Virus record (IMG/VR): IMGVR_UViG_3300035210_000034
Span: 1-39,076 of that record
From: a virus
DNA: 39,076 bases
Direction: 5' to 3' (one strand)
Shown: in pieces, positions 6,142 through 39,076 of the stretch
How the letters are laid out: each line of letters starts with the position of its first letter
Numbering within the stretch: the stretch's first letter is position 1
Notes under the pieces: generated by a model
What the model was told of the DNA's origin: nothing
Seen by the model: only the letters and a program-made list of their open reading frames with translations
Database searches by the model: none
Position numbers and translations under genes: made by a program

Positions 6142-6696
6142 ATGAAGAAGATTATCAGCCTGTTTCAGCGCGACTATGAAGGCGACCGCTTGGTGCGTGA
6201 CGAGGTAGTTCCGGGTGCCGAGTGGGTCACTGATGGAGAAGGCGTTGCAACGCGCAAACTGGACGGGACCTGTTGCATGTGGCGCGACGGCAAGCTGTGG
6301 AAGCGCCACGAACTGAAGGCTGGTAAGGCCATTCCAGAGGGCTTTGAGTCCGCGCAGGAGCCCGACAGCGTGACCGGCAACGTACCGGGCTGGGTACCAG
6401 TGGGTGATGGCCCGGAGGACGCGTGGCACCGCGAGGCTCTGAGCGCCGCTGGCGGCGCGCTGCCAGATGGCACGTACGAACTGTGCGGGCCGAAGGTACA
6501 GAAGAACCCGGAGGGGTGCGGCTCGCATGTGCTGGTGCTCCATGGCTCAGAAACGCTGGCTGAGTGTCCTCGCACGTTCGCTGCGTTGCGCGGGTACCTG
6601 CGTGAGCATGACATTGAAGGCGTGGTGTGGCACCACATGGATGGCCGGATGGTGAAGATCAAGGGTAAAGACTTCGGTCTGCGGCGCGGCGTGTAG
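6142..6696 (+). CDS. RNA ligase / nucleotidyltransferase family protein
   Basis: RNA ligases of this superfamily adenylate an active-site lysine and seal RNA ends. The 184-residue protein shows motif I as RKLDGT (nucleophile Lys39, Asp41, Gly42), WKRHE near 53-57, a motif III-like YELCGPKV (112-119), motif IV EGVV (159-162) and motif V VKIKGKDF (171-178). It is short, a bare nucleotidyltransferase domain like small phage RNA ligases (DUF5565-like). In T4, RNA ligase repairs tRNAs cut by host anticodon nucleases; with tRNA-like loci nearby, an analogous role is plausible but not proven. No polynucleotide kinase partner is seen in the window. The start has the ribosome binding site AAGGAAAAAC. 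Confidence 0.8.
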   Translation: MKKIISLFQRDYEGDRLVRDEVVPGAEWVTDGEGVATRKLDGTCCMWRDGKLWKRHELKAGKAIPEGFESAQEPDSVTGNVPGWVPVGDGPEDAWHREALSAAGGALPDGTYELCGPKVQKNPEGCGSHVLVLHGSETLAECPRTFAALRGYLREHDIEGVVWHHMDGRMVKIKGKDFGLRRGV

Positions 6697-7994: not shown

Positions 7995-10292
7995 TTGGAC
8001 GATAACCCGTTAGCACGTGCCGCGAAGGCGTTCGTCCAAGAGCGCCTAAGCGCGTTCACCAAAGCCACGTATAACCCCGACAGTCGCGCTTTCAAGCCTG
8101 AAAGCGTGCTGCTGAAGCGTGTCTCTGGTTTTCCTTTTGAGGCGTACCCGGATTACACCGCGCCCTGGCATCTCCTCCAGTGGCCGCACATGCGCTGGCA
8201 GCACGTGCTGGACGTGGTGACGATCATTGAGTCGCTGAAACACGTAGAAGGAGAGTTGAAAGGCGAGAAGATAGCACTGGAGTCGTTCCAGGTGATGATA
8301 TTGCTTTGTCTCCTCGGACCCGAAGACCCTGATACTAAGTTGAGGTTAGTTACTGAAGGGTTACTAACGATGGCAAGAAAGAACGCCAAAGACCTAAGTC
8401 TGGACACTCCAATACCCACTCCGAGCGGTTGGACCACCATGGGTGAAATCCAGGCTGGTGACTACGTGTTGGGAAGCGACGGGCTTCCTACGCTAGTGAC
8501 CAACGTGTCCGAAGTGTTCCACGGTAACACTTGCTATGATGTGCATTTCTCTGACGGGACAGTGATAACGGCTGGGGGGGGGCACTTGTGGACAACCCTG
8601 CACCGGAACACGCCCGAAGGAGCTACAGGCCGAGTACGGTTGACTAAAGGCAAATATCAAGCGGTGTGCACTACGAAGCAGGTATATGACAGCCTCTATG
8701 TCTACAGGCCGGGCGATGAGGTAGAAAACAATCACGCCATAGGCCCGTTCAGGGGAAAGACGGTCGAGATAGTAGACTGTGTTCCGGTGCAAAGCGTGCC
8801 TACTAAGTGCATCGCTGTAGACGCGTTTGATAACCTATTCTTGGCAGGACGAGGGGGTATACCGACGCACAATACGACGCTTATAGCAGGGATAATGACG
8901 GCGCTCTTGGTACTACATGAGGATAGCTACGGGCTGTCCACCGGCAACGGATACGTCGCAGCATCGGACAGAAAGCAGGCTGGCCTGACTTTCAAGATCG
9001 TCAACAGGTTTATCTCTCAGGACGAAGATTTAGGCATATCCAAGTTATTCCACATCATCGCTAGCAGCAAGCACATGACGCATATTACGTCGCTTGTTGA
9101 GTTTGAAGTGCTGTCTTCTGACGCGTACCGTGCGCACGGGTTGAACCCTGCTGTAGTTATTTTTGACGAGCTTGGTAACGTGCCCGCACCCGCGGCAGAA
9201 GAGTTTTTCTCTGTGCTAACATCCGGTTTCGGCGCTCAGGCTGAACCTCTTACGATAATGATGTCCACGCAGGCGCCAACTAACCTGCACATTTTTTCTC
9301 AGAAAGTAGACCGCTGTAAACGCATAAACACAGGGAACGAAGAGTCTCTGAGCGTAGCAGGCTTCGTGTTCGAGACACCGGAAGAGTTTAACGGAGCGAA
9401 GCTAGACCCGCATGACGAGAAAACGTGGTACTTAGCTAACCCGGGGCTGGGTAGCATTGTATCCCTTAAAGATATGCGCAAAGCTAGCGCGGATGTAGTG
9501 TCTATGCCGTCTGGAGAAGCCCGCTATCGTGGGTTGCGTCTCAACCAACGCGCCAACCCCTATAACCCGCTCATATCAAAGTCAAAGTGGGACCTGTGCT
9601 CAGGCTTTATAGATTACGATGAACTGTACGGTCGCCGATGCTATATGGCGTTAGACTTGTCTGGCACCACGGACTTGACATGCCTAACCGCCGTGTTTGA
9701 TCCGGTGACCGGAGAAGAGGATCAGCGCCGGCCCGTAGTTCCGTACTTCTTTATGCCGAGTCGGCGCATCCTGGAGAGGCAGAACCAGGATAAAGTACCG
9801 TTCGTGCTTTGGTCAGAGCAAGGATTCATTAACACAGAGTCCGATGAGACAATAGACTACGACCTCGTAGCCGCGCAGATAGAGTTCTGCGTGAAAAACT
9901 TCGACGTGCAGGGTATTGGTGCAGATCGGTACCGCATCAAAGACTTGAAGCCGTACTTGCACGAGCGTGGGATGGGGGACTTAGCAGAGGACGAGAAATT
10001 CTTGTTTGCGATAGGGCAGGGGTTCAAGGATGCAAGCCCGTGCGTAGATGCACTGGAGCGCGCGGTATACAACTCCAAGCTAAACCATGGGGACCATCCC
10101 GTGCTGACGTGGTGCATGTCCAACACCATCGCGACAAGCGACCCCGCAGGCGGACGTAAGTTTGATAAAGTGAAGTCTTATGGTAGAATAGATGGTACGG
10201 TAACGCTAGCGATGGCGCTACGTGTTATTGAGCTACTAGGCCACGACGCTGAAGGCACGAGCGCCTTTGAAACAGAGGAGTGCGCGATGTGA
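7995..10292 (+). CDS. terL: Terminase large subunit interrupted by an intein
   Basis: The large terminase is the ATPase motor and nuclease that packages phage DNA. The 765-residue precursor consists of an N-extein (1-132), a 161-residue intein (133-293) and a C-extein (294-765), giving a mature protein of 604 residues. The intein splits the Walker A loop, ARKNAK followed by TTLIAG. Walker B is VVIFDELG (about 387-394, Asp391 Glu392). The C-terminal nuclease has acidic sites in MALDLSG, GIGADRY and GRIDGTVTLAMAL. The order and motifs fit the HK97-type terminase that normally partners P27 small subunits. TTG at 7995, directly after the previous stop, is used as start because no ATG lies near; the ribosome binding site is weak. 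Confidence 0.9.
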   Translation: MDDNPLARAAKAFVQERLSAFTKATYNPDSRAFKPESVLLKRVSGFPFEAYPDYTAPWHLLQWPHMRWQHVLDVVTIIESLKHVEGELKGEKIALESFQVMILLCLLGPEDPDTKLRLVTEGLLTMARKNAKDLSLDTPIPTPSGWTTMGEIQAGDYVLGSDGLPTLVTNVSEVFHGNTCYDVHFSDGTVITAGGGHLWTTLHRNTPEGATGRVRLTKGKYQAVCTTKQVYDSLYVYRPGDEVENNHAIGPFRGKTVEIVDCVPVQSVPTKCIAVDAFDNLFLAGRGGIPTHNTTLIAGIMTALLVLHEDSYGLSTGNGYVAASDRKQAGLTFKIVNRFISQDEDLGISKLFHIIASSKHMTHITSLVEFEVLSSDAYRAHGLNPAVVIFDELGNVPAPAAEEFFSVLTSGFGAQAEPLTIMMSTQAPTNLHIFSQKVDRCKRINTGNEESLSVAGFVFETPEEFNGAKLDPHDEKTWYLANPGLGSIVSLKDMRKASADVVSMPSGEARYRGLRLNQRANPYNPLISKSKWDLCSGFIDYDELYGRRCYMALDLSGTTDLTCLTAVFDPVTGEEDQRRPVVPYFFMPSRRILERQNQDKVPFVLWSEQGFINTESDETIDYDLVAAQIEFCVKNFDVQGIGADRYRIKDLKPYLHERGMGDLAEDEKFLFAIGQGFKDASPCVDALERAVYNSKLNHGDHPVLTWCMSNTIATSDPAGGRKFDKVKSYGRIDGTVTLAMALRVIELLGHDAEGTSAFETEECAM
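8391..8873 (+). other. Class-3-like mini-intein in the terminase P-loop
   Basis: The 161-residue element starts DLSLDTPIPTPSGW (block A) and ends GIPTHN before Thr+1. Block B is TAGGGHLW (His65, Trp67), block F is KCIAVDAFDNLFLAG (Cys140), and block G is IPTHN (Thr159, Asn161). Position 1 is Asp, where class 1 inteins have Cys or Ser. The Trp, Cys and Thr correspond to the WCT set of class 3 inteins, which use the block F Cys as first nucleophile. There is no room for a homing endonuclease domain, so it is a mini-intein. Nine G in a row (8574-8582) encode the GGG in block B. Confidence 0.85.
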
Positions 10293-11042: not shown

Positions 11043-11455
11043 ACGCTGTCGGTTCGCCGGTAGCTGAGTGTCACTACCCTTCCGCGGCCCGGAACCAGCC
11101 TCTACGGAAGAACTCGTGTAAAGCCCCTGTACCGTAAGGTCCACGCATCAGCGAGAGTAGCACTCCCCGTCCTCGTGACGGGACCAACCCCGAAAGCCTC
11201 GACATGCCGCAAGCGTGCCGGGGCTTTCGACTGTCTGGGGTTGCGTTTTCCGACGAACGGCACTAGACTTCCTGCAAATGCAATATTCAGCACGAAATCG
11301 TCCAGGAAAACGCGAACGCTCGGAGCGCCCACCGCCCGGCGAGCGCGACGACGACTAGCCTGCTAGGTTTCCCCAAGCCCCTCCGTCGGTGAGACCGGGA
11401 GGGCACGCTATAGGTGTGCCCATGCCCGCGACTCGCAATTCCCGCAAGCCCTGAC
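11043..11455 (+). other. Long structured leader of the head operon
   Basis: About 410 bases without a supported protein gene except a 10-codon frame at its end. It holds several hairpins: GGTAG/CTACC (11059-11078), TTCCG/CGGAA (11080-11094), CGAAAGCC/GGCTTTCG (11191-11198 with 11222-11229, extended by AACCCC/GGGGTT), and CCCTCC/GGAGGG with inner CGGT/ACCG (11379-11403). The last competes with GGGCAC/GTGCCC, which overlaps the start region. An inverted copy of the CCGTTCGTCGG motif is at 11250. This resembles an attenuating leader, but no riboswitch class is recognised. Confidence 0.5.
11422..11454 (+). CDS. Ten-codon leader peptide frame before the homing endonuclease
   Basis: The frame MPATRNSRKP starts at ATG 11422, seven bases after AGGTG, and stops one base before ATG 11456 of the endonuclease. 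The endonuclease start itself has no ribosome binding site, so translation through this short frame and restart is plausible. Confidence 0.3.
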   Translation: MPATRNSRKP

Positions 11456-12424
11456 ATGAAACTCCGGGCAATCAGCGCCAAAAACTTCAAGTACCTTGTT
11501 GGGTTGTACAACCCGACGGTGCTTCGCGTGCTTGATGAGAAGCTGTACGCCGCTTTGCGCGTCCCCCTGTCCCGAGGTCAAGCGACGCACATGCCTATCT
11601 GCATGTTGCATGCGGACGGGTCCCCCGTTGCGTCTTTTGGTGTTCTGTTGAGAGCGGACGGGGCTATCAAGTCCGCCGTTGCCGACTTGCATAAGGCGTG
11701 CGGGTTCCAAGTAAACGGGACGCAGATCGTGGTATCCGCCTATGGGTGGACAGTGGCGGTTCCTTTGAATGCTATCCTGAAAGGCGCCGCGACGGTGGAG
11801 GATAAGCATATAGTCTACAGCCACACCGTAGGTAGCAAAGAGGACGGCGCTAAGACCTACGTCGGCATGACCAAACAAGGATTGCTTAAAAGGTACCAGC
11901 AACACCTGAACAGCGCGTACTCAGGGTCTCCGTACCTATTCCACAAGGCGCTGCTAAAGTACCAAGGCGGGTTCAGCATTCACCAAGTGCTGGCAGCAGG
12001 TTTAACTAAGGACGAAGCAGAAGATTACGAGGAGATGTTCATCGCGGGCCTTTCGTTGCATCCTAAAGGCTTGAATATGGTTCCGGGCGGGAAGTCTGGC
12101 CTGGCGTACTTGCGCTCCATCGGCGCGCTGAACGACGCCAACAAGGATCAGCCAAAGGACAAGGTAATTACAGACTTCTTCTCCCGCTGCGGTCGAGAAG
12201 GCCGGCCAAACCCACTCATCTCTGCACGGTGGAAGGACGACGGTTATGCCGAGTCCATCATCTGCGGCAATCCCCGCAACCTCTCAGTAGAGCAAGTGCA
12301 GCAGGCCAGAACCATGTTGTCGCTCGGCGCATCTGTCGAGGACGTGGTAGCGAGTGTCGGTATCCGAAACATGCGAATCGCTGAATCACTTGCCGCAGGC
12401 AAGACTTATGGCAGGGTCCACTGA
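11456..12424 (+). CDS. GIY-YIG homing endonuclease, free-standing
   Basis: Homing endonucleases cut DNA lacking their gene and promote its spread. The 322-residue protein has an N-terminal region of unknown fold (1-115), a GIY-YIG nuclease core (about 117-212) and a C-terminal helix-turn-helix segment resembling nuclease-associated DNA-binding modules (about 277-320, ending GKTYGRV). In the core GIY is degenerate (VYS, 120-122), YIG is YVG (135-137), the catalytic Arg is Arg146, the Glu is Glu192 or Glu193 and the Asn is Asn207. ATG 11456 is preferred; an in-frame GTG at 11414 would add 14 residues. No intron is visible, so it is free-standing between packaging and capsid genes. Its stop overlaps the capsid gene start. 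Confidence 0.8.
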   Translation: MKLRAISAKNFKYLVGLYNPTVLRVLDEKLYAALRVPLSRGQATHMPICMLHADGSPVASFGVLLRADGAIKSAVADLHKACGFQVNGTQIVVSAYGWTVAVPLNAILKGAATVEDKHIVYSHTVGSKEDGAKTYVGMTKQGLLKRYQQHLNSAYSGSPYLFHKALLKYQGGFSIHQVLAAGLTKDEAEDYEEMFIAGLSLHPKGLNMVPGGKSGLAYLRSIGALNDANKDQPKDKVITDFFSRCGREGRPNPLISARWKDDGYAESIICGNPRNLSVEQVQQARTMLSLGASVEDVVASVGIRNMRIAESLAAGKTYGRVH

Positions 12425-14421
12425 TGAGTCAAATGTTCTTTAAGGTAGGCAAGGTCGCTAACCGTAAGGCCGTCAACGTGGATGAGCCGGTCCCGGTCAT
12501 GCTGACAACCCCCGCTATTGATTCGTATGGGGACTCGGTGAACCCATTGGGCGCTGATGTTGTCACTCGTGCTTTCGACGAGTGCTTCCCACTTTTGATG
12601 AACCACGATAGCCGGGTAAAAAGCATCGTGGGGAAGGTGGGGAATTTGAAGATCACCAAGGACGGTATCGAGGCAATGATTTATATGGCCCCCGCGGGTA
12701 CGTCTGAGGATGTGGACGTGGCGCGGGCGCTGATGGCGGGAGGGTACACCCCTTTCGTGTCCATCGGCTTTTTGGCGGACATGGAAGCCTGCGAGCCGCT
12801 TGATCCTGAAGAACCGTGGGGTGGGTACCGCATCAACAAATGGCAACTGGTGGAAGTCTCCATCACTCCTACGCCAGCCAACCCCGAAGCACGTCTCAAA
12901 GACCTCAACCCTGCGTTCGGTAGGATGCTGTCTGCACTAGCGCACACGTCGAGCGCAGTCATGTGCACCAGAAGCATCCACGACCAGATGATGAGTACCA
13001 AGTTGCAAGCGAGCGACACCCAATCTAAACCAACCCCAAAAGGGAGAACCAATATGTCGCTCGCCGACAAAGTTCAAGCCAAGCAGCAAGAGATCGTCAA
13101 GACCAAAGACCAGATTGCCGCTATCACCAACTCCCTGGATGATACCGGCGCGATGACGGATGAACAGTCTGAGGCGTTGCATGATCTGGCGACCAAGCTC
13201 GACAGCCTGAACGGTCATCTCAAGAACCTCGAACACTTGGAACGCACGTTGGCCGCCACCAGCGGCGGCACCGCCGACCCGGCGCCCGTCCCACGCGTTG
13301 AGGCCCGGTCCCGCACGCCCGGCATGAACAAGGCCGGTATGGCCCTGGCCTGCGTCATCAAGGGCCTGATGACCAACAAGGACCCGCTCTCGCTGGCCCG
13401 CGAGGAGTGCAAAGACATCCCTGAGATGGAGATGCTGGTGCGCGCGGCAACGGCGCCCGCCGTCACCGGGAATCCGACGTGGGCCGGTAATCTGGTCCAG
13501 GAGACGTGGGGTCCGCTCGTGGAGGCCATGTACGCGATGACCGTGTACAACCGCATCCCGGGTATGCGGCTGACGTTTGAGGGCAAGTTCAACCTTCCCG
13601 TGCAAGGCGGTGTCGGCAACTTGGCGGGTGACTTCATCGCCGAAAATGGCGTGATTCCCGTCAAGTCCGGTTCCATCGGTACCGTGAGCCTCCAGCCGCA
13701 TACGTTGGGCGTCATCTCCGCGTTCTCCAAGGAGTTGATGCGCCGGTCTGTCCCGTCGATCCAGGGGATCATTCAGAACCAGATTCTCAAGGACACCGCT
13801 CGCACCATTGACGTGAAGTTCTTGGACGCCATCGCACGCACCGCGGGGACTCGCCCGGCGGGCTTGCAGGACACCACTGAAACCGGCGCTGGGAACATCG
13901 TGGCGCAAGCGAACGTGGCCACTGGCGCGGGCAACAGCACGGTCAAGGAAATCAATGCCAGTACCCGCGCGATGTTGGGCCGGGTGTGGGCTATTGACGC
14001 GGGTGTTGAAGGCGTGTGGGTCATGAACCCCCTTCAGCGCCTTGCGCTAGAAGATAAACAGGACGGCACGACAGGGCAGTTCGTGTTCCGTGATGAAGTC
14101 CAGCGCGGCCGATTCAGGGGGTTTCCGATCCTGGAGAGCACCAACGTCACCAGTGGCGTGACGGCTTTCATCGCGGGTGACTCCATGGCGTTCGCCACTG
14201 AACTGCTGCCGTACTTTGAGCAAAGCGATCAGGCGACCTTGCACTTCGAGGATACGAGCCCGGCCACCATCTCGACCGCAGGTACCCCGCCTGCGCTTGC
14301 GCATCCGGTGATCTCGCTCTTCCAGCAGAACTTGGTCGCGGTAAAGGGTATCTGGACGTTGGACTGGCGTATTCTGCGTCAGGCCGGCGTACAAGTTTTG
14401 ACCGCCACTACCGGCTGGTAA
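12424..14421 (+). CDS. Prohead protease - major capsid protein fusion
   Basis: One 665-residue reading frame joins two head proteins that are usually separate. Residues about 5-175 are an S78-type HK97 prohead protease: His61 in LLMNHD, Ser113 in FVSIGF and Glu144 in LVEVSITPT form the likely catalytic set. Residues about 211-285 are a charged coiled coil like the HK97 delta domain, which is normally removed by the protease. Residues about 300-665 are the HK97-fold capsid protein, with the segments FNLPVQGG, SLQPHTLGVISAFSKEL and FRGFPILES typical of the family. An internal start at 13054 has its own ribosome binding site and would give capsid protein alone. The gene overlaps the endonuclease stop. 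Confidence 0.9.
   Translation: MSQMFFKVGKVANRKAVNVDEPVPVMLTTPAIDSYGDSVNPLGADVVTRAFDECFPLLMNHDSRVKSIVGKVGNLKITKDGIEAMIYMAPAGTSEDVDVARALMAGGYTPFVSIGFLADMEACEPLDPEEPWGGYRINKWQLVEVSITPTPANPEARLKDLNPAFGRMLSALAHTSSAVMCTRSIHDQMMSTKLQASDTQSKPTPKGRTNMSLADKVQAKQQEIVKTKDQIAAITNSLDDTGAMTDEQSEALHDLATKLDSLNGHLKNLEHLERTLAATSGGTADPAPVPRVEARSRTPGMNKAGMALACVIKGLMTNKDPLSLAREECKDIPEMEMLVRAATAPAVTGNPTWAGNLVQETWGPLVEAMYAMTVYNRIPGMRLTFEGKFNLPVQGGVGNLAGDFIAENGVIPVKSGSIGTVSLQPHTLGVISAFSKELMRRSVPSIQGIIQNQILKDTARTIDVKFLDAIARTAGTRPAGLQDTTETGAGNIVAQANVATGAGNSTVKEINASTRAMLGRVWAIDAGVEGVWVMNPLQRLALEDKQDGTTGQFVFRDEVQRGRFRGFPILESTNVTSGVTAFIAGDSMAFATELLPYFEQSDQATLHFEDTSPATISTAGTPPALAHPVISLFQQNLVAVKGIWTLDWRILRQAGVQVLTATTGW
13041..13056 (+). 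promoter_or_regulatory. Internal ribosome binding site and start for the capsid protein
   Basis: AGGGAGAA (13041-13048) lies five bases before an in-frame ATG (13054-13056), exactly at the border between protease and coiled-coil/capsid parts. It is stronger than the site at the start of the whole gene. It probably lets the capsid protein be made in large excess over the protease. Confidence 0.7.
13054..14421 (+). CDS. Major capsid protein from the internal start
   Basis: Starting at ATG 13054 gives a 455-residue HK97-type major capsid precursor with a delta-domain coiled coil (MSLADKVQAKQQEIVKTKDQ at its start). This is the usual length and layout of a separate HK97 capsid gene. It would form the hexamers and pentamers of the head, with the longer fusion built in at low copy number as the protease. 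That the two products coexist is inferred from the ribosome binding site. Confidence 0.65.
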   Translation: MSLADKVQAKQQEIVKTKDQIAAITNSLDDTGAMTDEQSEALHDLATKLDSLNGHLKNLEHLERTLAATSGGTADPAPVPRVEARSRTPGMNKAGMALACVIKGLMTNKDPLSLAREECKDIPEMEMLVRAATAPAVTGNPTWAGNLVQETWGPLVEAMYAMTVYNRIPGMRLTFEGKFNLPVQGGVGNLAGDFIAENGVIPVKSGSIGTVSLQPHTLGVISAFSKELMRRSVPSIQGIIQNQILKDTARTIDVKFLDAIARTAGTRPAGLQDTTETGAGNIVAQANVATGAGNSTVKEINASTRAMLGRVWAIDAGVEGVWVMNPLQRLALEDKQDGTTGQFVFRDEVQRGRFRGFPILESTNVTSGVTAFIAGDSMAFATELLPYFEQSDQATLHFEDTSPATISTAGTPPALAHPVISLFQQNLVAVKGIWTLDWRILRQAGVQVLTATTGW

Positions 14422-24205: not shown

Positions 24206-24630
24206 GTTCGGTCGCCGTCAGAGAAGCCTTTGAGGCCCGCCTGCACGCCATGTACCCGGCAATGGAGTTGGTGCGGGTGGAGAACGAGAATATCGTTCCG
24301 CTGAAGGACGCGCAGGGGAAAGCGAAAGCGTTTCTCGCGTGCCTGTATATCGCAACCGAAGATGCACTTGGTCTAGGTAATAAGAAGTGGCGCGAGCGTG
24401 GCACGATCAACGTGTTGATTTACGCGTTAGCTGGTAGAGGCTCCCCCGCCGCCACTGCCGACGCATTGCGACCCCTGGCGGGAAAGGACCTACATGTCGA
24501 TGCGCCCGGCATTCGGTTGGCGCTGCTTACAGCAGACCCGCTCACGCAATACTTGGGTGGTGCGGGTCCGACAGGCGTTTACAGCGTAGGCATGGTAGCT
24601 ATTGCCTACGAGTTCGATTTCACACGTTGA
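24202..24630 (+). CDS. Tail terminator protein
   Basis: The GTG overlaps the previous stop. The 142-residue protein has an N-terminal helix AVREAFEARLHAM, a middle segment with RERGTINVLIYALAGRG (about 64-80) and a C-terminal strand pair ending VGMVAIAYEFDFTR. This is the layout of gpU/gp17-like tail terminators, which cap the tail tube and join it to the neck. It precedes the tube gene as usual. Confidence 0.68.
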   Translation: MSSVAVREAFEARLHAMYPAMELVRVENENIVPLKDAQGKAKAFLACLYIATEDALGLGNKKWRERGTINVLIYALAGRGSPAATADALRPLAGKDLHVDAPGIRLALLTADPLTQYLGGAGPTGVYSVGMVAIAYEFDFTR

Positions 24631-24640
24631 GGACATCGCA

Positions 24641-26320
24641 ATGGCTTCCACTTCGCGCGGTCGCGTCTCCTACCTCCGGGAAGCCATCGCTGGCGTTCTC
24701 CCGGCGTCCCCCAATTGGCAAATCGTTGGCGTTAACAGTGAGTCGTTGGCGTACGCCAAGACCACGGTTGAGTCAGGCCGTCTCGACTCCACTGGCCAAC
24801 CCGTCGATACGGTGAAGGTCGGTGCGAAGAGCGCAGGATCGCTCATGATTGAATGGGCGCCGGTAACGTTCGACCCGTTCTTGGAGGCCGCGTTCCGCGG
24901 CACATTCGCCAACGTCGTCAACTCCACCGGGGCGGTCGTCATTGCAGCATCAGCGCGCACACTGACGTTGGCGGGCGCCTTCACAGACGCGGTTGCAGGG
25001 CAGTGGGTACTCCTGTCCGCATTCGTCGCGGGTGAGTCGTACCCCGGGGCTGGTGATAGCGCAAACAACGGGTGGTGGAAGATTGAGTCCGTCACCAGTG
25101 ACGAGGTAGTCGTTCTCGCTGATCCGTCTGGCCGTTTGGTCGACGAGACCGCTACGGAGGGCATTGTGAAGTCGCGCCGCCTCCTGAATGGGTTGCGCAA
25201 GATCAGCTACGCCGTTGAGGTCACTTTGACCGATGCGCAGACCTATTTCGCGTATCTCGGACAGCACGTCAGCACTTTGGCGATGACTCTCAGCGCGGGG
25301 GCCATCGTAACTGGTGAGGTCGGCTTCGTGGGCTCTGACGTGCTGGATGAGCAGGGCGTGCAGGAGTTCACGGGCGCCGTGTCCGTTGCCGCGACAAGCC
25401 GCACGATCACCGCCACCGGGGCGTTTGAGCGGGCCGCGGCAGGCCAGTCAATCACTCTCTCCGGGCTCGCTAACACCGGTAACAACGTCACCGGCAAGAT
25501 CGCTACCGTGATCTCCGATGATGCGGTAACTTTGACGGCCGCTACGGCAGCGTTGGTGGATGAGAACCTGGCAGTCTCCTACACAGGGGTTGTCACGGTC
25601 ACGGCTGCCGGTCGGCACGTGACGGCGACGGGCGCGTTCAAAGGCGTTGCCGCGGGCCGCAGCATCACTATCAGCGGCATGACTACAGCGGGCAACAACG
25701 TCATGGGGGTCGTCGCCACGGCGGTCTCGAACGACGAGGTTACGCTGACTTCTGCTACCACCACGCTGGTGAATGAAACCGGCCCCGGCACCGCGCATAT
25801 CGTCTCGGCCAAGGCGGCGAATGGCGCGTCTATCGTCGGCGCGGCGCCATCTTGGTCCGCTACGGGGTCTTACATAGCGGAGACCGAGACCGGCGCTCTG
25901 AATGCCACCAGCAACGTGGGTGACATCTACATCGACGGTGCGCTCAGTAACGCGTGCTTCAAGGCGCTGAACTGGACGCTGACCAACAACCTTCGGGAGG
26001 TCCCGTGCATCGGCGACGAGTTCCCGCGTATTGACTATGGCACGCCTGCGCTGACGGGCTCGTTCGAGCGCCTGTACACCGATATCGACCTGTGGCGCAA
26101 GATGCGTAACCACGAGACCATTGCCGTCGAGTTCGGCGTGGTTGGCGCTGATGTATCCACGGGTATCCACATCAGTGTGCCCGAAGCACGCATCAATACC
26201 AACCCCATCGACCTGAGCGGTGGCAACAATACCGATGTCGTGGACAAGGTGGATTGGTCGGCGTCGAAGCACACCAACGCGGCGAGTGAAACCTACTACG
26301 TGCAGGTGTGCGTGGCATGA
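24641..26320 (+). CDS. Major tail tube protein with repeated beta modules
   Basis: The start ATG 24641 follows TTGAGGACATCGCA. The N-terminal region (MASTSRGRVSYLREAIAGVL to about residue 95) and the C-terminal region (about 415-559, with EVPCIGDEFPRIDYGTP and ALTGSFERLYTDIDLWRKM) match the phage tail tube 2 type of siphoviruses. In between sit related beta modules beginning near residues 98, 245 and 317, each with an AV-V-A-R-T-T-AGAF-A-AG pattern and NTGNNV/TAGNNV. At 559 residues it is about 200 longer than usual, and the modules probably protrude from the tube surface. Confidence 0.82.
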   Translation: MASTSRGRVSYLREAIAGVLPASPNWQIVGVNSESLAYAKTTVESGRLDSTGQPVDTVKVGAKSAGSLMIEWAPVTFDPFLEAAFRGTFANVVNSTGAVVIAASARTLTLAGAFTDAVAGQWVLLSAFVAGESYPGAGDSANNGWWKIESVTSDEVVVLADPSGRLVDETATEGIVKSRRLLNGLRKISYAVEVTLTDAQTYFAYLGQHVSTLAMTLSAGAIVTGEVGFVGSDVLDEQGVQEFTGAVSVAATSRTITATGAFERAAAGQSITLSGLANTGNNVTGKIATVISDDAVTLTAATAALVDENLAVSYTGVVTVTAAGRHVTATGAFKGVAAGRSITISGMTTAGNNVMGVVATAVSNDEVTLTSATTTLVNETGPGTAHIVSAKAANGASIVGAAPSWSATGSYIAETETGALNATSNVGDIYIDGALSNACFKALNWTLTNNLREVPCIGDEFPRIDYGTPALTGSFERLYTDIDLWRKMRNHETIAVEFGVVGADVSTGIHISVPEARINTNPIDLSGGNNTDVVDKVDWSASKHTNAASETYYVQVCVA

Positions 26321-26618: not shown

Positions 26619-26645
26619 GACCCTATAACAGCACCGGAGGAGATT

Positions 26646-26867: not shown

Positions 26868-26888
26868 CGCAACACCGGAGAGCACCAA

Positions 26889-27725
26889 GTGGAAACTATC
26901 ACTCAACTGAAAATCACAGGCTACCGCCAACTCAAGGAGGCGGAAGTCGAGTTGATGAACGACATCAAGGCCGCGGGTGCCCAGTTGGAAACCCTGTGCT
27001 TACGGGTTTCCGGGTACCTGAAAACGGAGCACGAAGTGAAAGCCACTGCGGTAGCAACGTCGAAGGTAGCGCCCGAAGATGAGGCCAGTCCTGAGAGCAT
27101 CGAGTTGCGCCGATTCAACGCCGCGCGACCGGGCCATTGGGCTGCTATCGGCAACACGCGCTTGCAAGAGGGCTTGATGGCTCTGACTCGTGCAGTGGCA
27201 CAACCGACAACGTTCTGGCATACAACAACACCGGAGAAGAGTATGAGCACCACCTTTGATGACAATGCGGAAGAAGCAAAGCCGGCGAAAACGATAATCG
27301 GCAACTTCAAGCTGGACCTTCGGGCCGTTGACGAAGGACAGTGGGTCGGCGACATCCCGGACCTCCCAGGCGTGTCCTTCCGGGTCCGCGGCAGCGAGTA
27401 TGAGCCGTACCAGGCGGCGTTGCGGCGCGCGTCCACCCAAGACGTGGCCTCGTCTAAACGCGAGCGCGTTGACCAGTTGCGCAAGCGAAGCGTCGACCAA
27501 GAAGCGTTCTTGGTGAAGCTCAATCATGCTATTGCCAGGCATCTTTTGATCGGGTGGGACGGTATCTACGCCGACGAGGATACCCTTCAGTCCTTCACCG
27601 AAGAATTGGCGTTGGAGTTCATGACCAACCGCGCGTACAAGGCGTTCCGAGAAGGGGTTCAGTTCGCGCTCACTGTCGTGGACTCCGGTGCCGCAGATCA
27701 CCGGGAGGAAGCAGCGGGAAACTGA
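26889..27725 (+). CDS. Acb2/Tad1-like domain fused to tail assembly chaperone (gpG-like)
   Basis: One continuous frame of 278 codons joins two parts. Residues about 5-105 (LKITGYRQLKEAEVELMNDI, a helical stretch, then GHWAAIGNTRLQEGLMALTR and AVAQPTTF) match my recollection of small phage proteins annotated as Acb2/Tad1 helical-hairpin proteins, which sequester nucleotide immune signals. Residues 119-278 are the first tail assembly chaperone, with KTIIGNFKLDLRAVDEGQW. The linker HTTTPEKS is simply the translated ribosome binding site of the second gene, so a stop codon was probably lost. The GTG start has ACACCGGAGAG upstream. A -1 frameshift site sits at the end. Confidence 0.6.
   Translation: METITQLKITGYRQLKEAEVELMNDIKAAGAQLETLCLRVSGYLKTEHEVKATAVATSKVAPEDEASPESIELRRFNAARPGHWAAIGNTRLQEGLMALTRAVAQPTTFWHTTTPEKSMSTTFDDNAEEAKPAKTIIGNFKLDLRAVDEGQWVGDIPDLPGVSFRVRGSEYEPYQAALRRASTQDVASSKRERVDQLRKRSVDQEAFLVKLNHAIARHLLIGWDGIYADEDTLQSFTEELALEFMTNRAYKAFREGVQFALTVVDSGAADHREEAAGN
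27228..27245 (+). promoter_or_regulatory. Internal ribosome binding site and start of the chaperone
   Basis: ACACCGGAGAAGA (27228-27240) precedes the in-frame ATG 27243. The same cassette precedes the genes at 272, 26646 and 26889, so it is a real initiation signal now lying inside an open frame. Confidence 0.8.
27243..27725 (+). CDS. Tail assembly chaperone G-like, from internal start
   Basis: From ATG 27243 the product is 160 residues (MSTTFDDNAEEAKPAKTIIG at its start), the usual size for the first siphovirus tail chaperone. It has a beta-rich N-terminal half with VSFRVRGSEYEPYQAALRRA and a helical C-terminal half. It would coat the tape measure protein during tail assembly. Position before the frameshift site and the tape measure supports this. 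Confidence 0.7.
   Translation: MSTTFDDNAEEAKPAKTIIGNFKLDLRAVDEGQWVGDIPDLPGVSFRVRGSEYEPYQAALRRASTQDVASSKRERVDQLRKRSVDQEAFLVKLNHAIARHLLIGWDGIYADEDTLQSFTEELALEFMTNRAYKAFREGVQFALTVVDSGAADHREEAAGN
27716..27722 (+). promoter_or_regulatory. -1 programmed ribosomal frameshift site GGGAAAC
   Basis: The heptamer is read as G GGA AAC, followed immediately by TGA (27723-27725). A -1 slip continues in the downstream frame at CTG 27722. This is the lambda G/GT arrangement (GGGAAAG in lambda) and explains why the downstream frame has no ribosome binding site. Confidence 0.85.
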
Positions 27726-28093
27726 CCGAGTTCTTGCGTTGGGCCATGAGCCCCAAAGCCCAGCGCAAGAGCAAACTCAAAGCGAATGAGGCATGGCTAC
27801 AGGCGGCATGGAAGGAGAAAGGGAAGGCCGCGCCCAAGCAGTTTCAGGAAGAGTTGGACGACGCTATGGATGTACCTGAGCTATCTTGGTTAGAGCAACA
27901 GTACCTCCAGGTGTTCAACATGGCTGCGACGTGCCGGCCTTCCGCGTTTGGTGGTGTGGCGCCGTTGCCGTACCTCGTAGTGGCTGAAGTGCTGGACCGC
28001 AACGGGTATGTTGGTGAGGACTTCAGGACTGCAATGTACGTCATCGGCGAACTCGATAAAGTCGTAGTAGAACACTACTCAAAGGAGAAATAG
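27722..28093 (+). CDS. Tail assembly chaperone T-like extension, made by frameshift
   Basis: The frame continues LTEFLRWAMSPKAQRKS for 123 residues to 28093. It is a helical domain (ELSWLEQQYLQVFNM, VVAEVLDRNG) that would be attached to the preceding chaperone to give a 283-residue GT-like protein. The first ATG in the frame (27748) has no ribosome binding site, so independent translation is unlikely. Confidence 0.75.
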   Translation: MTEFLRWAMSPKAQRKSKLKANEAWLQAAWKEKGKAAPKQFQEELDDAMDVPELSWLEQQYLQVFNMAATCRPSAFGGVAPLPYLVVAEVLDRNGYVGEDFRTAMYVIGELDKVVVEHYSKEK

Positions 28094-28795
28094 GTGCCAG
28101 TAATCACGCTTGGGCTTGACCGACTTATCTCACAGGGTCCCATCCCCGATGATGAGTGGGAGAAGTATAAGCGTGATGTGATGCGGGAAGAGCACCAGGA
28201 GGTCATGCGTGCGAATCCCCATGCAGATGAGGACCCGCAGGTGAAGTGGGACTTTCATCGGGATTGGCGTACTGCTAAATTGCCGAAAGGGGAGGTCTTC
28301 GGGTCCGACTACGACTACTGGCACGATGTGGCAAATGACGCGCTTAGGCTATGGAAACAGTATGCACCGAAGATGCCGCAACGCGACTTTGTTGCAGAGA
28401 GGATAGCGCGGAAGCAAGACCTTCCTTATGGCTGGTCCCGTGATGTCTATGCAGTAGGCTTCGGCATTTGGGAGAACGGCGTCAAAACGTCATTCGGCGC
28501 ACGGCTTGAAGGGCCGCGGGTAGACGTGGGACCGACCGCTGACTTCGCAGCGTTCTTGGAGAACTGGCAGTACGGTCGTAAGTTTGGCGCGGGGCCTGTT
28601 GCCATCTATGAACATATCGGCGTGCTGAACGTGATAGCGCGCGAGCTTGCTGTAGCGTATCTCGGCGTCCACTCCATTTTCATGATGCCCGTAAAGACTA
28701 CCAGCACTGACGCTATACCTACACCGGATAGAACGAAGCCCGTCTCCACGTTCCCCATCATCCGTATCGCTCCGCGGCATTACAGAAAGAGATGA
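28094..28795 (+). CDS. Hypothetical protein of the neck/tail region (233 aa)
   Basis: The GTG start follows AAAGGAGAAATAG. The protein has a charged N-terminal half (DDEWEKYKRDVMREEHQEVM), a helix with YWHDVANDALRLWKQYAPKM, and a C-terminal domain with GPVAIYEHIGVLNVIARELA (about 178-197) and TPDRTKPVSTFPIIRIAP. It lies between chaperone and tape measure genes. It may be a virion or tail completion protein; I do not recognise the family. Confidence 0.6.
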   Translation: MPVITLGLDRLISQGPIPDDEWEKYKRDVMREEHQEVMRANPHADEDPQVKWDFHRDWRTAKLPKGEVFGSDYDYWHDVANDALRLWKQYAPKMPQRDFVAERIARKQDLPYGWSRDVYAVGFGIWENGVKTSFGARLEGPRVDVGPTADFAAFLENWQYGRKFGAGPVAIYEHIGVLNVIARELAVAYLGVHSIFMMPVKTTSTDAIPTPDRTKPVSTFPIIRIAPRHYRKR

Positions 28796-31700
28796 GCACT
28801 ACCACTAAGACTGTCATTACTCGGCTTCTCGTCACTGATAAAGAGGCGACGGACGGTATTGAGCGGGTCAAGACCAGTCTCAAGGAATTTAGAGACGAGC
28901 TAGCGTCCGCAGGGAAGAGCGTAGAAAATTTGACGAAGACGGAGGCCGCTCAGTTCCGCGAGCATATTCGGGGGGCGAAGAGTTTCGAGGCTAACGCACT
29001 TTGGGCATTGAAACTTTTTGATGCTACTGAAAGGCTGCGCAAGTCTTTAGCGGCTGGAAATATCACGCAGGCGGCGTATAACACCCGCCTAGATCAAACT
29101 GAAGCCGCGATGGGGCGCGCGTTCGCGGCAGAACAGCGGATGGCATCTGAGCGTCGTAAGTCCGCGGGAGGAGGCTACGGTAGGAGTGATGCCGAGTACA
29201 TCGCGGCCGAGCAGGCGAAAGCAACGGCGGAAGCCGAGCGGCTGTCTGCGTTGCGTGCAAGGTCCTATGCCGCTGAAGTCAACGCTAGGATAGCGAAAGA
29301 GAAAGAGTACAGCGCCTTCTGGAGCGCGGAACTCGCGAAGCGGGAGATGGCTGATCCGTTTAACATGGCGAACGTGGTAGCGCAGGCGCGTGCCGGTGAA
29401 CTTGCGCTCGATCGTATGGCGAAGGCAAATTATCGCCTTCAGCAGTCACAGGCCGCCGCTTCCGCGAAAGCTGATCCGTTTAACATGGCGAACGTGGTAG
29501 CGCAGGCGCGTGCCGGTGAACTTGCGCTCGATCGTATGGCGAAGGCAAATTATCGCCTTCAGCAGTCACAGGCCGCCGCTTCCGCGAAAGCTGATCCGTT
29601 TAACATGCAGAACATCATTGCTTTGCAGCAACGCACTGCGGGGCAAACGGGATCGCTCTACCAGCAGACATCCTCTCAGCTATCCGACAGACCTAAACAG
29701 CAGCCCGTAGACCCCATCCCCGATAGTGCAATAACAAAGTCCAAAGGACTGCTTGATACGATCAACAAGCTGTCCTTCTCCATCTTCGTCCTATCATTCG
29801 GCACGCAGCAGCTTGGCGAAATCTTCTTGCGTGTGTTCGTGCAAGCGGGTGAGAAGATTGAGGCCCTGAAGTTTCGCATGGAAGGGCTTACGAAGTCGCA
29901 GGATACCTTCCGGGGGATATTCAAGGTAGCGCAAGACTTAGGCGTCGGTATCGACGCCGTAGCAGGGTCCTTCAATCGTTTTGCTATCGCGAACACCGCG
30001 ATGGGCTTGACGAATGATAAGCTCATTGAGATGACCCGTAACATCGGTATCCTCGGCCTCGTTGGCGGCGGTACCGCGCAAGAAGTAGCCTCTGGTATGC
30101 AGCAGTTGGGCCAGTCGCTTGCAAGCGGGGTGCTTCAGGGCGACGAGCTACGTTCCATCATGGAGAACATGCCCTTCCTTGCGTTGAAACTGGCCGAGCA
30201 GCTAAAGGTCGGAGTAGGTGAGTTGAAAGGCATGGGCGCCGCTGGCCAACTTACATCAGCGCGAGTATCCGAAGCATTCCTGAAGATGACACAGGAGCTT
30301 AACCGACTGCTGGAGGATGTCCCAGTCACGACGGAGCGCGGCTTGGCGCGCGTAGGCAACGAGTGGGCGATCCTCGTGAACAATATGCTCCAGGTCATCG
30401 GCGTCGATACCGTAGGACAGTGGTTCACGGATATCGCGGAGAGGATAAAGAGGTTCTCGGACTACGTTGCGGAGAATCGCGTTGTCATAGCAGGATGGAT
30501 CGCGGGTATCGCTAGCGCGACTGCGGCTCTCATAAAACTGTTCTTGGCGTTCCAGGTTCTCAGAACTGCGGCTGTCATTAGCGTAGGTATCGTGGCTTTT
30601 ACGACAAGTTTAAACGCGGCGCGGGTCGCGGCCACGTCTTCTGCCTCGGCCAACATGATCTATGGCATGAGTCTAGCGGGCACGGGCCGTGCGGCCACCA
30701 CTGCTACTGCTGCGTCTGGCCTGTACTTTGCTACGCTGACACGAGGGGCCAAGGTGTTCGGTTTAGTGGCTACGGCAGCGTTTCCGATTGTAAGCATCAT
30801 AGCTGCACTCGGCGTCGCGTTTATGTCGTACCGTAAGGCGCAGGACGAGGCTACGCAGTCGGCGTCTGACGCGGTGGAGAAGTTTAAGGAACTGGACGCG
30901 GTGCAGCTTGCTGCCATGAATCGTCGCGAGGCTACCAAGGCTGCTACTGAGTCAGAAAACAAGGTTAGGACTGGCATAGACGCGTTAGTAGAAAATGCAA
31001 AAAAGATAGAAGAAGCACAGGCTGCCGTAAGAGACTTAACTAAAGAACTAGACCGTGCGCAGGCTGCTCCGTCGTGGCAGACTACATTCACTGGAGGCAC
31101 CACTGAACTGTTTTTAGGGGAACTGACGCAGTGGGAAGCTAAACTTGACGCGCTCAAGAAAAAACAGTACGACCTGAATGACGCAGTAGGCGCAAGTAAA
31201 GTCGCTACTGACGGGTATACTTCGCAAGTAATACGTTTGAGTTCAGGCTTTGACGCGCAGGTGGCTGCGATAGACCGCATGTCAAAATCATACAAGGAGA
31301 TGAAGAAGACTTTGGAGGAGTTGCCAGCGTCTAACCGTGTGCTAGAGCAGACCCTTGCGTTAATAGATAAGTACGGAATTGATGAAGGTAAACGCCGTGG
31401 CGCTCGTCAAGCAATACTTAACTCCTATACTGATATAGTTCGCGACCAGATGAAGGATGCTAAGAAGGACGATCCTAAGCAACTCGTTGACATCAGGAAT
31501 GCAGAAATATCCAAGGCGCAAGAGGCACTGAAGCTACAGCTAAGGGAGCTAGACCTGCAAGAAAAGATGAATGATGCCACTTCCACAGGATACCGGGACT
31601 ACGCTAACCGAGTGTCCACAGTTATAGGGCTAAACGAGAAGCAGAAGGACGGCCTGCGGTCCATTCTCCCTGTCATTGAAGAGATGTCTAAGAGGTATAG

Positions 31701-33318
31701 TGTAGCGAAGGAACTCGTAACAGCAATAGCGGTTCGGGAGTCTGGCGGCGATAACTTCTCCATGGGCGCCGTCAGTCCGAGAAGAACTGTAAACGGCGCA
31801 CCATCAGGTGGCGTAGCGGGCACGATGCAGGTGACACGCGATACCGCCGCCGCCGTAGCAAAGAAGTACGGTCTTCCTTACACCGTAGACGAGATGAGGA
31901 CACAACTCCGTCCTCAGATGGAAGTAGCGGTAGCGTATCTCAACCAACTGATGGCGAAGTATAACGGGGATGTGGAGAAAGCTGCGCAAGCGTATAACGG
32001 GTTTGGGCCGTCACGGGACAAGAACTATGGCGTCAAAGTAGCGCAGATGACCAACCAGCTATCCATGCTCGGAAGTGGCGGGATGGCGTCTATGATAAAC
32101 AAACAGCGTGAAGCAGCACAAAAGAGTCAAGAGACCGTTATCGCCGGTACTCGCGACCTTCTTGCTACGTCCACTGACTACTACGCACGTGTTGCGGCGA
32201 TGGAGCAACAACGCGCGCTGGAGCTACAGAAGATAAAGGACACGGAAGGGTTGTCGGATGAGGCCCGCTCAGTAGCAAGCCTAGCTGCCGACGCGCGGTA
32301 CTACGCAGCAAAGCGAGACCTGGAGCAACAGACTCTTTCGTACAGCTTGGAGACGGCGCAAATTGAACGCGATGGCCGCGCTACCGCCACCACGGAGTCA
32401 GAGCGCTTAGCGCAAGAAGAGGCTGATATTCGTACTGCTGCGGACTTGCGTATCGCTGAAGAACGGCGTAAAGCGGGTTTGGGACTTATAACCCCCGCGG
32501 ATGAGGCTCGCCGCGTCAATGCTGAACTCGGCGTCATGCAAAAGAACGTTGATGACCTGAAGCGGACGAACCTAGAGCGGTGGACCGTAAGTGCGAGTCA
32601 AGCCTTCGGTAGTTTCTTCGGGGCGTTGGCTACAGGCGGCGAGGCGTTCAAAGATACGCTCAAGACGCTGGTGTCTGCTCTGCGTGACTTAATGGTTCAG
32701 ATGCTCATTATTACTCCCATCGCTAACGCTATGAAGAATGCGATGAACTACGTTGGCACGAGCACCGGAAGCGGTGGAAGTGGCTTCAGTTGGGGTGGAC
32801 TCGTTAGCGCAGTGGCGGGGGGCGCAGTGTCCGGTGCCCTCGGAGGAGCGGCGGGTGGGGCCGGAGGCGGAGTGGTAAGTGGCGCAGCGGGCGGGATGAC
32901 GCAGGACATGCTGTTCGCGAACGGGGGAGCGTTCAGGTCTTCTCTCATGCCGGGGCTCTACTCGCAGCCGACCTACTTCCCGATGTCCGGTTGGGGCACG
33001 CACCGCTTCGCTGCGGGTGTCGGGCTGCTTGGAGAAGCCGGCCCGGAGGCCGTGCTACCCCTGCGACGCGGGGCCAACGGCACGCTGGGGGTAGAGGCAG
33101 GGGGCGGACGGGCGTCGTCCGTAGTCAACAACGTCTATAACAGCGTGTCCGCGGATATCCGCACCCGACAGAATGACACAGGGGGTGTGGATGTTTATGT
33201 CACGCCTAAACAGCTATCTCAAATAGAGTCGCACTTGGCGAGTCAAACTGTGAACGGACGCGGCCCCTTGTCTGCGGCTCAACAAAATGTATGGGGCGCG
33301 CGCAGGGTTGGGTCATGA
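28792..33318 (+). CDS. Tape measure protein with lytic transglycosylase domain
   Basis: The 1508-residue protein sets tail length and is ejected into the cell with DNA. Residues 1-310 are charged helix, including a perfect 40-residue duplication (about 187-266). Residues about 320-560 carry the tape-measure core (ALKFRMEGLTKSQDTFRGIF, LQGDELRSIMENMPFLALKL). Hydrophobic stretches lie near 565-595 and 650-680. Residues about 960-1090 form an SLT-type domain: AIAVRESGGDN with Glu983 as likely catalytic acid, GTMQVT and AAQAYNGFG. The C-terminus has a Gly/Ala-rich stretch and LLGEAGPEAVLPLRRG. The domain should cut peptidoglycan during infection. Confidence 0.92.
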   Translation: MSTTTKTVITRLLVTDKEATDGIERVKTSLKEFRDELASAGKSVENLTKTEAAQFREHIRGAKSFEANALWALKLFDATERLRKSLAAGNITQAAYNTRLDQTEAAMGRAFAAEQRMASERRKSAGGGYGRSDAEYIAAEQAKATAEAERLSALRARSYAAEVNARIAKEKEYSAFWSAELAKREMADPFNMANVVAQARAGELALDRMAKANYRLQQSQAAASAKADPFNMANVVAQARAGELALDRMAKANYRLQQSQAAASAKADPFNMQNIIALQQRTAGQTGSLYQQTSSQLSDRPKQQPVDPIPDSAITKSKGLLDTINKLSFSIFVLSFGTQQLGEIFLRVFVQAGEKIEALKFRMEGLTKSQDTFRGIFKVAQDLGVGIDAVAGSFNRFAIANTAMGLTNDKLIEMTRNIGILGLVGGGTAQEVASGMQQLGQSLASGVLQGDELRSIMENMPFLALKLAEQLKVGVGELKGMGAAGQLTSARVSEAFLKMTQELNRLLEDVPVTTERGLARVGNEWAILVNNMLQVIGVDTVGQWFTDIAERIKRFSDYVAENRVVIAGWIAGIASATAALIKLFLAFQVLRTAAVISVGIVAFTTSLNAARVAATSSASANMIYGMSLAGTGRAATTATAASGLYFATLTRGAKVFGLVATAAFPIVSIIAALGVAFMSYRKAQDEATQSASDAVEKFKELDAVQLAAMNRREATKAATESENKVRTGIDALVENAKKIEEAQAAVRDLTKELDRAQAAPSWQTTFTGGTTELFLGELTQWEAKLDALKKKQYDLNDAVGASKVATDGYTSQVIRLSSGFDAQVAAIDRMSKSYKEMKKTLEELPASNRVLEQTLALIDKYGIDEGKRRGARQAILNSYTDIVRDQMKDAKKDDPKQLVDIRNAEISKAQEALKLQLRELDLQEKMNDATSTGYRDYANRVSTVIGLNEKQKDGLRSILPVIEEMSKRYSVAKELVTAIAVRESGGDNFSMGAVSPRRTVNGAPSGGVAGTMQVTRDTAAAVAKKYGLPYTVDEMRTQLRPQMEVAVAYLNQLMAKYNGDVEKAAQAYNGFGPSRDKNYGVKVAQMTNQLSMLGSGGMASMINKQREAAQKSQETVIAGTRDLLATSTDYYARVAAMEQQRALELQKIKDTEGLSDEARSVASLAADARYYAAKRDLEQQTLSYSLETAQIERDGRATATTESERLAQEEADIRTAADLRIAEERRKAGLGLITPADEARRVNAELGVMQKNVDDLKRTNLERWTVSASQAFGSFFGALATGGEAFKDTLKTLVSALRDLMVQMLIITPIANAMKNAMNYVGTSTGSGGSGFSWGGLVSAVAGGAVSGALGGAAGGAGGGVVSGAAGGMTQDMLFANGGAFRSSLMPGLYSQPTYFPMSGWGTHRFAAGVGLLGEAGPEAVLPLRRGANGTLGVEAGGGRASSVVNNVYNSVSADIRTRQNDTGGVDVYVTPKQLSQIESHLASQTVNGRGPLSAAQQNVWGARRVGS
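29350..29607 (+). repeat. 120-bp perfect tandem duplication in the tape measure gene
   Basis: Copies 29350-29469 and 29470-29589 are identical, followed by the first 18 bases of a third copy (29590-29607). The unit is 40 codons and keeps the frame. Absence of any difference shows very recent origin or an assembly-sensitive repeat. Confidence 0.95.
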
Positions 33319-38889: not shown

Positions 38890-39076
38890 GTGGCTTGTCC
38901 CACAACACTCTGTACCATCGCGCGGCCGGCCGAGCAGCAAGGGCTCACCGTCCTCACCGCTCCGGCTCCGTCGCTCCTGGCGCTGGGAACCGTGCCCCCT
39001 GTGGTGGCTGCGCGGGTGCAGTTGAGCGCGCCTGCCCCCGTGCTGTACGCCTTCGGGAGCACGATCCCGCCGGTCG
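38890..39076 (+). CDS. Partial CDS at the right edge of the window
   Basis: A frame starting at GTG 38890 (MACPTTLCTIARPAEQQGLT) stays open to the end of the sequence. The visible 62 residues are Ala/Pro/Val-rich like the preceding tail genes. It is probably another distal tail protein, cut by the window. Confidence 0.5.
   Translation, partial: MACPTTLCTIARPAEQQGLTVLTAPAPSLLALGTVPPVVAARVQLSAPAPVLYAFGSTIPPV

Follow-up and report, generated by a model that had tools for sequence, protein, structure and literature searches.

An Acb2-type sponge and a tail assembly chaperone in one phage reading frame, with signs of a probable stop-codon loss

A virus record of 39,076 bases from an uncultured phage (IMGVR_UViG_3300035210_000034), analysed over its whole length and called the window here, carries a real and so far unrepeated pairing of two known protein families, with clear remnants of its origin. 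A single open frame runs from a GTG start at 26889 through the TGA at 27723-27725 (26889-27725, 278 codons, 278 aa) and joins an Acb2 sponge to a tail assembly chaperone; this ORF and the neighbouring features of the tail region described below lie on the plus strand. The explanation that best accounts for the whole, with a probability slightly better than even (about 0.56), is that the loss of a stop codon joined the sponge to the chaperone and that an internal start still supplies the chaperone products G and GT. At the sequence level, the fusion is unusual when set against its Acb2 relatives. The first-pass annotation had called a sponge domain attached to a tail chaperone undescribed, and the literature searched did indeed yield no described precedent for such a joint gene. 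The two halves were aligned and modelled separately, a joint alignment having put chaperone rows under the sponge.

The sponge half comprises residues 1-109 (26889-27215) and is assigned to the Acb2 family by profile, sequence and fold matches. A profile comparison with the Acb2/Tad1 families, which had been proposed as a check, gave a match of PF24729 (Acb2_Tad1_hairpin) to residues 11-105 with an E-value of 3.8e-13 and 49.9 bits, above the curated cut-off of 27 (Pfam). The PaP2 Acb2 of solved structure (8h2j) aligns with this half at an E-value of 9e-15. The AlphaFold model has a pLDDT of mostly 85-98 across residues 11-100, and residues 1-105 are modelled as helices, with only single-residue strand marks, in the helical hairpin fold of solved Acb2. 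The best structural match of the model is 8h2x (probability 1.00, TM 0.82 by target length), and the fold search is topped by 8h2x, 8h2j and T4 Vs.4. The first 105 residues had been annotated as Acb2/Tad1-like; the match is more precisely to Acb2. Tad1 was considered as the nearer relative but is less favoured, no Tad1 entry being found among the fold matches listed. The Tad1 fold has a beta sheet at the N-terminus and two long helices at the C-terminus (PMC12043709).

The conserved residues Y12, N24, K27, W84, M97, R101 and the QP are all kept in the sponge half. For comparison, 118 loci from named phages, IMG/VR and bacterial genomes were reduced to 102 distinct proteins besides the window, among which Y12 is present in 100 and K27, N24 and R101 in all 102. 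Y12 and K27 correspond to Y11 and K26 of PaP2, which we take to be residues of the dinucleotide pocket, and His83 corresponds to PaP2 R67, which presumably serves trinucleotide binding. Of the 102 relatives, 96 have Arg at position 83 and three, each of them unfused, have His; Arg at PaP2 position 67 is thus a common trait of Acb2 that does not define the family, and it is absent here. If R67 has the role that we assume, the His83 protein may differ in trinucleotide binding. The three relatives with His at this position (L100, L103 and L104) are Acinetobacter Acb2 proteins, and together with the window they could form a subgroup with an altered ligand range. In T4 Acb2, the tyrosine change Y8A has been described as binding-deficient (PMC12657230), and Y8 is probably the same tyrosine as Y12 and PaP2 Y11.

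The clearest departure from the family lies at the C-terminal end of this half. A stop codon follows 1-7 residues past the conserved QP in 101 of the 102 distinct relatives (exactly three residues past it in 77), one distant relative ending 21 residues past it, which indicates that the sponge normally ends at the present codon 110. In the window this codon (27216-27218) reads TGG, one transition from TGA or TAG, and the protein extends 172 residues beyond the QP (P106). The unfused relative L118 reads ACG ACG TTC TGA where the window has ACA ACG TTC TGG. A free C-terminus just after QPxxx, absent here, is typical of Acb2 rather than defining. Loss of one stop codon would be the simplest history of the fusion, as the first-pass annotation had suggested, and the termination of relatives at the same residue bears this out. 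A frameshift error as the origin was ruled out, since neither half is disrupted and the two share one frame. When the search was extended to 760 further genomes, no PF24729 match above the cut-off lay in an open frame longer than 190 aa, measured between stops; no other Acb2 fusion was found either in the 118 loci or among these above-cut-off matches. A sub-threshold Acb2 match inside an 850-aa frame from the same search was set aside.

Codon 110 is followed by 24 nt that are now translated (27219-27242), a former intergenic stretch and leader that holds CACCGGAG at 27229-27236. The same cassette forms the ribosome site of the sponge gene (26873-26880). It occurs five times on the plus strand of the window, and four of the copies, at 256, 26632, 26873 and 27229, stand shortly before the starts at 272, 26646, 26889 and 27243; three of these belong to successive genes of the tail region. 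Since the linker carries this cassette, the internal start at 27243 bears the same ribosome-site signature as the starts around it. The ATG is in frame, GGAG lies 6 nt upstream of it within the cassette, and it is predicted to pair with 16S RNA as well as the sponge gene's own start does. These positions agree with the earlier reading of the linker as the translated ribosome-binding cassette of the second gene, with its internal start retained. The ribosome site of ATG 27243 is good and unexceptional, with some 8% of the window's internal ATGs scoring equally well. The linker frame holds no stop; the two other frames do have stops there. A stop at codon 110 would leave a gap of 24 nt to ATG 27243, comparable with the 27 nt (26619-26645) and 21 nt (26868-26888) that lie ahead of the two preceding genes. 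Residues 118-137 are predicted to be disordered (AlphaFold, pLDDT <50).

From the internal ATG onward (27243-27725, 160 aa), the frame encodes the tail assembly chaperone G. PHROG 313 ("Tail assembly chaperone") matches this part with an E-value of 2e-11 over residues 136-253, the BFVD matches of its model are phage tail assembly chaperones, and the best PDB row is HK97 2ob9 at a moderate Z of 5.7; residues 119-278 had been called a tail chaperone, and that assignment is supported. The nearest relative, present as L125/L208 on one contig, is a free-standing chaperone of 137 aa with 40% identity, which terminates in the same EEAAGN stop with an identical GGGAAACTGA. The eight nearest IMG/VR matches, L208 included, are all unfused, and no Acb2 gene was found near any of these eight chaperones.

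The slippery heptamer GGGAAAC (27716-27722) immediately precedes the TGA, being read G GGA AAC TGA, and is identical in L208 and L209. Either GGGAAAC or AAAAAAC stands at the corresponding place in all eight nearest IMG/VR chaperones, followed by a -1 T-like extension, and about 80 Acinetobacter phage chaperone relatives have GGGAAAG. In the window the heptamer is followed, after a 7-nt spacer, by a 15-bp stem-loop (27730-27772) that is likely to stimulate frameshifting (z -6.4; none of 200 shuffles was equally stable). Neither L208 nor L209 yielded a comparable stem; strong as it is in this phage, the stem may thus not be conserved. An Rfam search gave no match near the fused region. Beyond the predicted -1 shift, the T-like extension (27722-28093, ...GKLTEFLRWAM...) matches PHROG 3817 (tail chaperonin) and was aligned to five relatives. 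The shift site that had been noted is therefore present together with the T frame beyond it. A separate start for the T frame at ATG 27746 was considered, but its ribosome site is weak and the slippery site is common to relatives, and frameshifting is preferred for this reason.

The genes around the fusion are those of a tail region. Upstream lies a tail protein (24602-26320, PHROG 290 minor tail protein), and after one 233-aa ORF the chaperone region is followed by the gene of a 1508-aa tape measure protein (28792-33318), similar to an annotated tape measure protein in L010. The locations of Acb2 genes in other phages vary and include late structural operons. In the Vibrio myophage vB_VpaM_R20L, a separate Acb2-like gene lies 20 nt before the tail assembly chaperone gene (L002 2983-3629). 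The tape measure gene of the window contains a direct repeat of about 120 bases at 29361-29607, and the contig of a second assembly of the same phage, L005 (IMGVR_UViG_3300034160_000027), starts at this repeat and matches exactly over 127 bases, as expected of an assembly break. The end of the window (39003-39076) is a unit repeated in tandem several times in L005, about 69 bases apart, and the record thus probably stops at a tandem repeat.

Several features elsewhere in the window also deserve mention. The terminase large subunit (7995-10292) has profile matches at residues 74-207 and 293-756, and the approximately 85 unmatched residues between them suggest a possible insertion. An ORF at 6142-6696 resembles RNA ligase 1 in its residues 107-181, which match the C-terminal part of that family (PF17720, E 7e-12); the family's N-terminal part was not seen in this ORF. 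A homing-endonuclease-like ORF (11414-12424, PHROG 314) directly precedes the gene of the major head protein (12424-14421). The first part of the latter also matches head maturation protease families, and judging from these matches, a single protein may combine protease and capsid.

From the arrangement of the fused gene we infer a history, the expression of four products, ligand binding and a division of labour. At first, a free-standing Acb2-type sponge gene would have come to lie in the late operon immediately ahead of the chaperone gene, the two genes having separate ribosome sites, and a single substitution in the sponge stop (TGA or TAG to TGG at codon 110) would then have merged the frames. 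The long frame now consists of the sponge, a 9-residue linker from the old leader and the chaperone G. Ribosomes starting at 26889 would make the sponge-chaperone, those starting at ATG 27243 the normal short G alone, and a minority of both forms would shift -1 at GGGAAAC and gain the T-like part. In the long form the Acb2 hairpin most likely still forms, and this form may sequester cyclic dinucleotides used in CBASS-type immunity. The short G and GT are probably what tail assembly relies on, and the sponge, if still active, would act from the long form. It is a distinctly improbable further step that the product is a functional moonlighting protein, in which an anti-immune sponge is tied covalently to a chaperone, two starts and one frameshift give four products, and one message, perhaps also one complex, serves both counter-defence and tail assembly.

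The case for the fusion hangs on a single base of a single assembled record, and the window could contain an error of assembly or sequencing, or else a rare variant, with the real phage stopping at codon 110 and having two ordinary adjacent genes. One substitution would be enough, a stop near codon 110 is kept in 102/102 relatives, and a stop at 27216 would leave before ATG 27243 a gap like those of the neighbouring genes. A second record of the fused region was not found by protein searches or by DNA-pattern searches of IMG/VR with a pattern across the linker. The same phage is represented by two further records, L005 and L217 (IMGVR_UViG_3300034160_000021, which matches the window's capsid protein at 100%); they hold different parts of it, and neither was found to cover the fusion. 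However, there is no sign of a frame error, and the 9,596 bases that L005 shares with the window show zero mismatches, so the consensus quality looks high in that overlap. We consider an error or rare variant unlikely.

It is also conceivable that the stop loss is real and the sponge dispensable or impaired, the fusion being a tolerated step of decay in which only the short chaperone matters. The otherwise fixed C-terminal end of Acb2 and the His83 in place of the usual Arg are consistent with this, and the chaperone would be rescued by the internal start. Yet the sponge frame is intact with its start and ribosome site kept, all of the conserved residues listed above are in place, and His83 is shared with three unfused relatives, which makes decay rather unlikely in our view. 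Selection for the fusion itself is very improbable. Sponge oligomers would then be tied to the chaperone, which would either set a constant ratio of sponge to tail assembly or alter the oligomeric state of the chaperone on the tape measure protein. With both halves intact and the linker predicted to be disordered, both domains could work, and the Vibrio phage likewise has its Acb2 gene directly before the chaperone; nevertheless, the fusion was found once, is not conserved across relatives, and the internal start would loosen any linked ratio. Should the fused protein be produced and functional, it would follow that a large partner can be attached to the otherwise fixed C-terminus of Acb2 and that anti-defence genes are able to merge with essential genes of structural assembly. 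The locus would then also capture a gene fusion just as it begins, its former leader, ribosome site and start codon still recognisable. If the window holds an error or rare variant, this is the ordinary case of two neighbouring late genes.

Comparison with known systems places both halves on familiar ground. The sponge half has the hairpin fold and conserved core residues in common with Acb2 of the Pseudomonas phages PaP2, PaMx33 and JBD67 and with T4 Vs.4, and in JBD67-like phages Acb2 is a small late-operon gene, as here. Known Acb2 proteins are free-standing, all but one ending within those few residues of the QP, whereas the window protein continues far beyond it; PaP2 has Arg67 where the window protein has His83. 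The chaperone half resembles the lambda-type G/GT pair (PHROG 313/3817; HK97 2ob9) in its place, flanked by a tail protein gene on one side and the tape measure gene on the other, and in that G ends in a slippery heptamer followed by a -1 T extension. Unlike that type, the G frame of the window is open upstream into the sponge gene, and a 233-aa ORF separates T from the tape measure gene. The closest parallel to the stop loss is PaMx41 gp24, in which the no-stop change X37Q restores full-length Acb2 (PMC10419184). Both Acb2 genes are lengthened through the loss of a stop codon, but gp24 loses an internal premature stop, whereas the sponge gene of the window has lost its natural terminal stop and is joined to the next gene.
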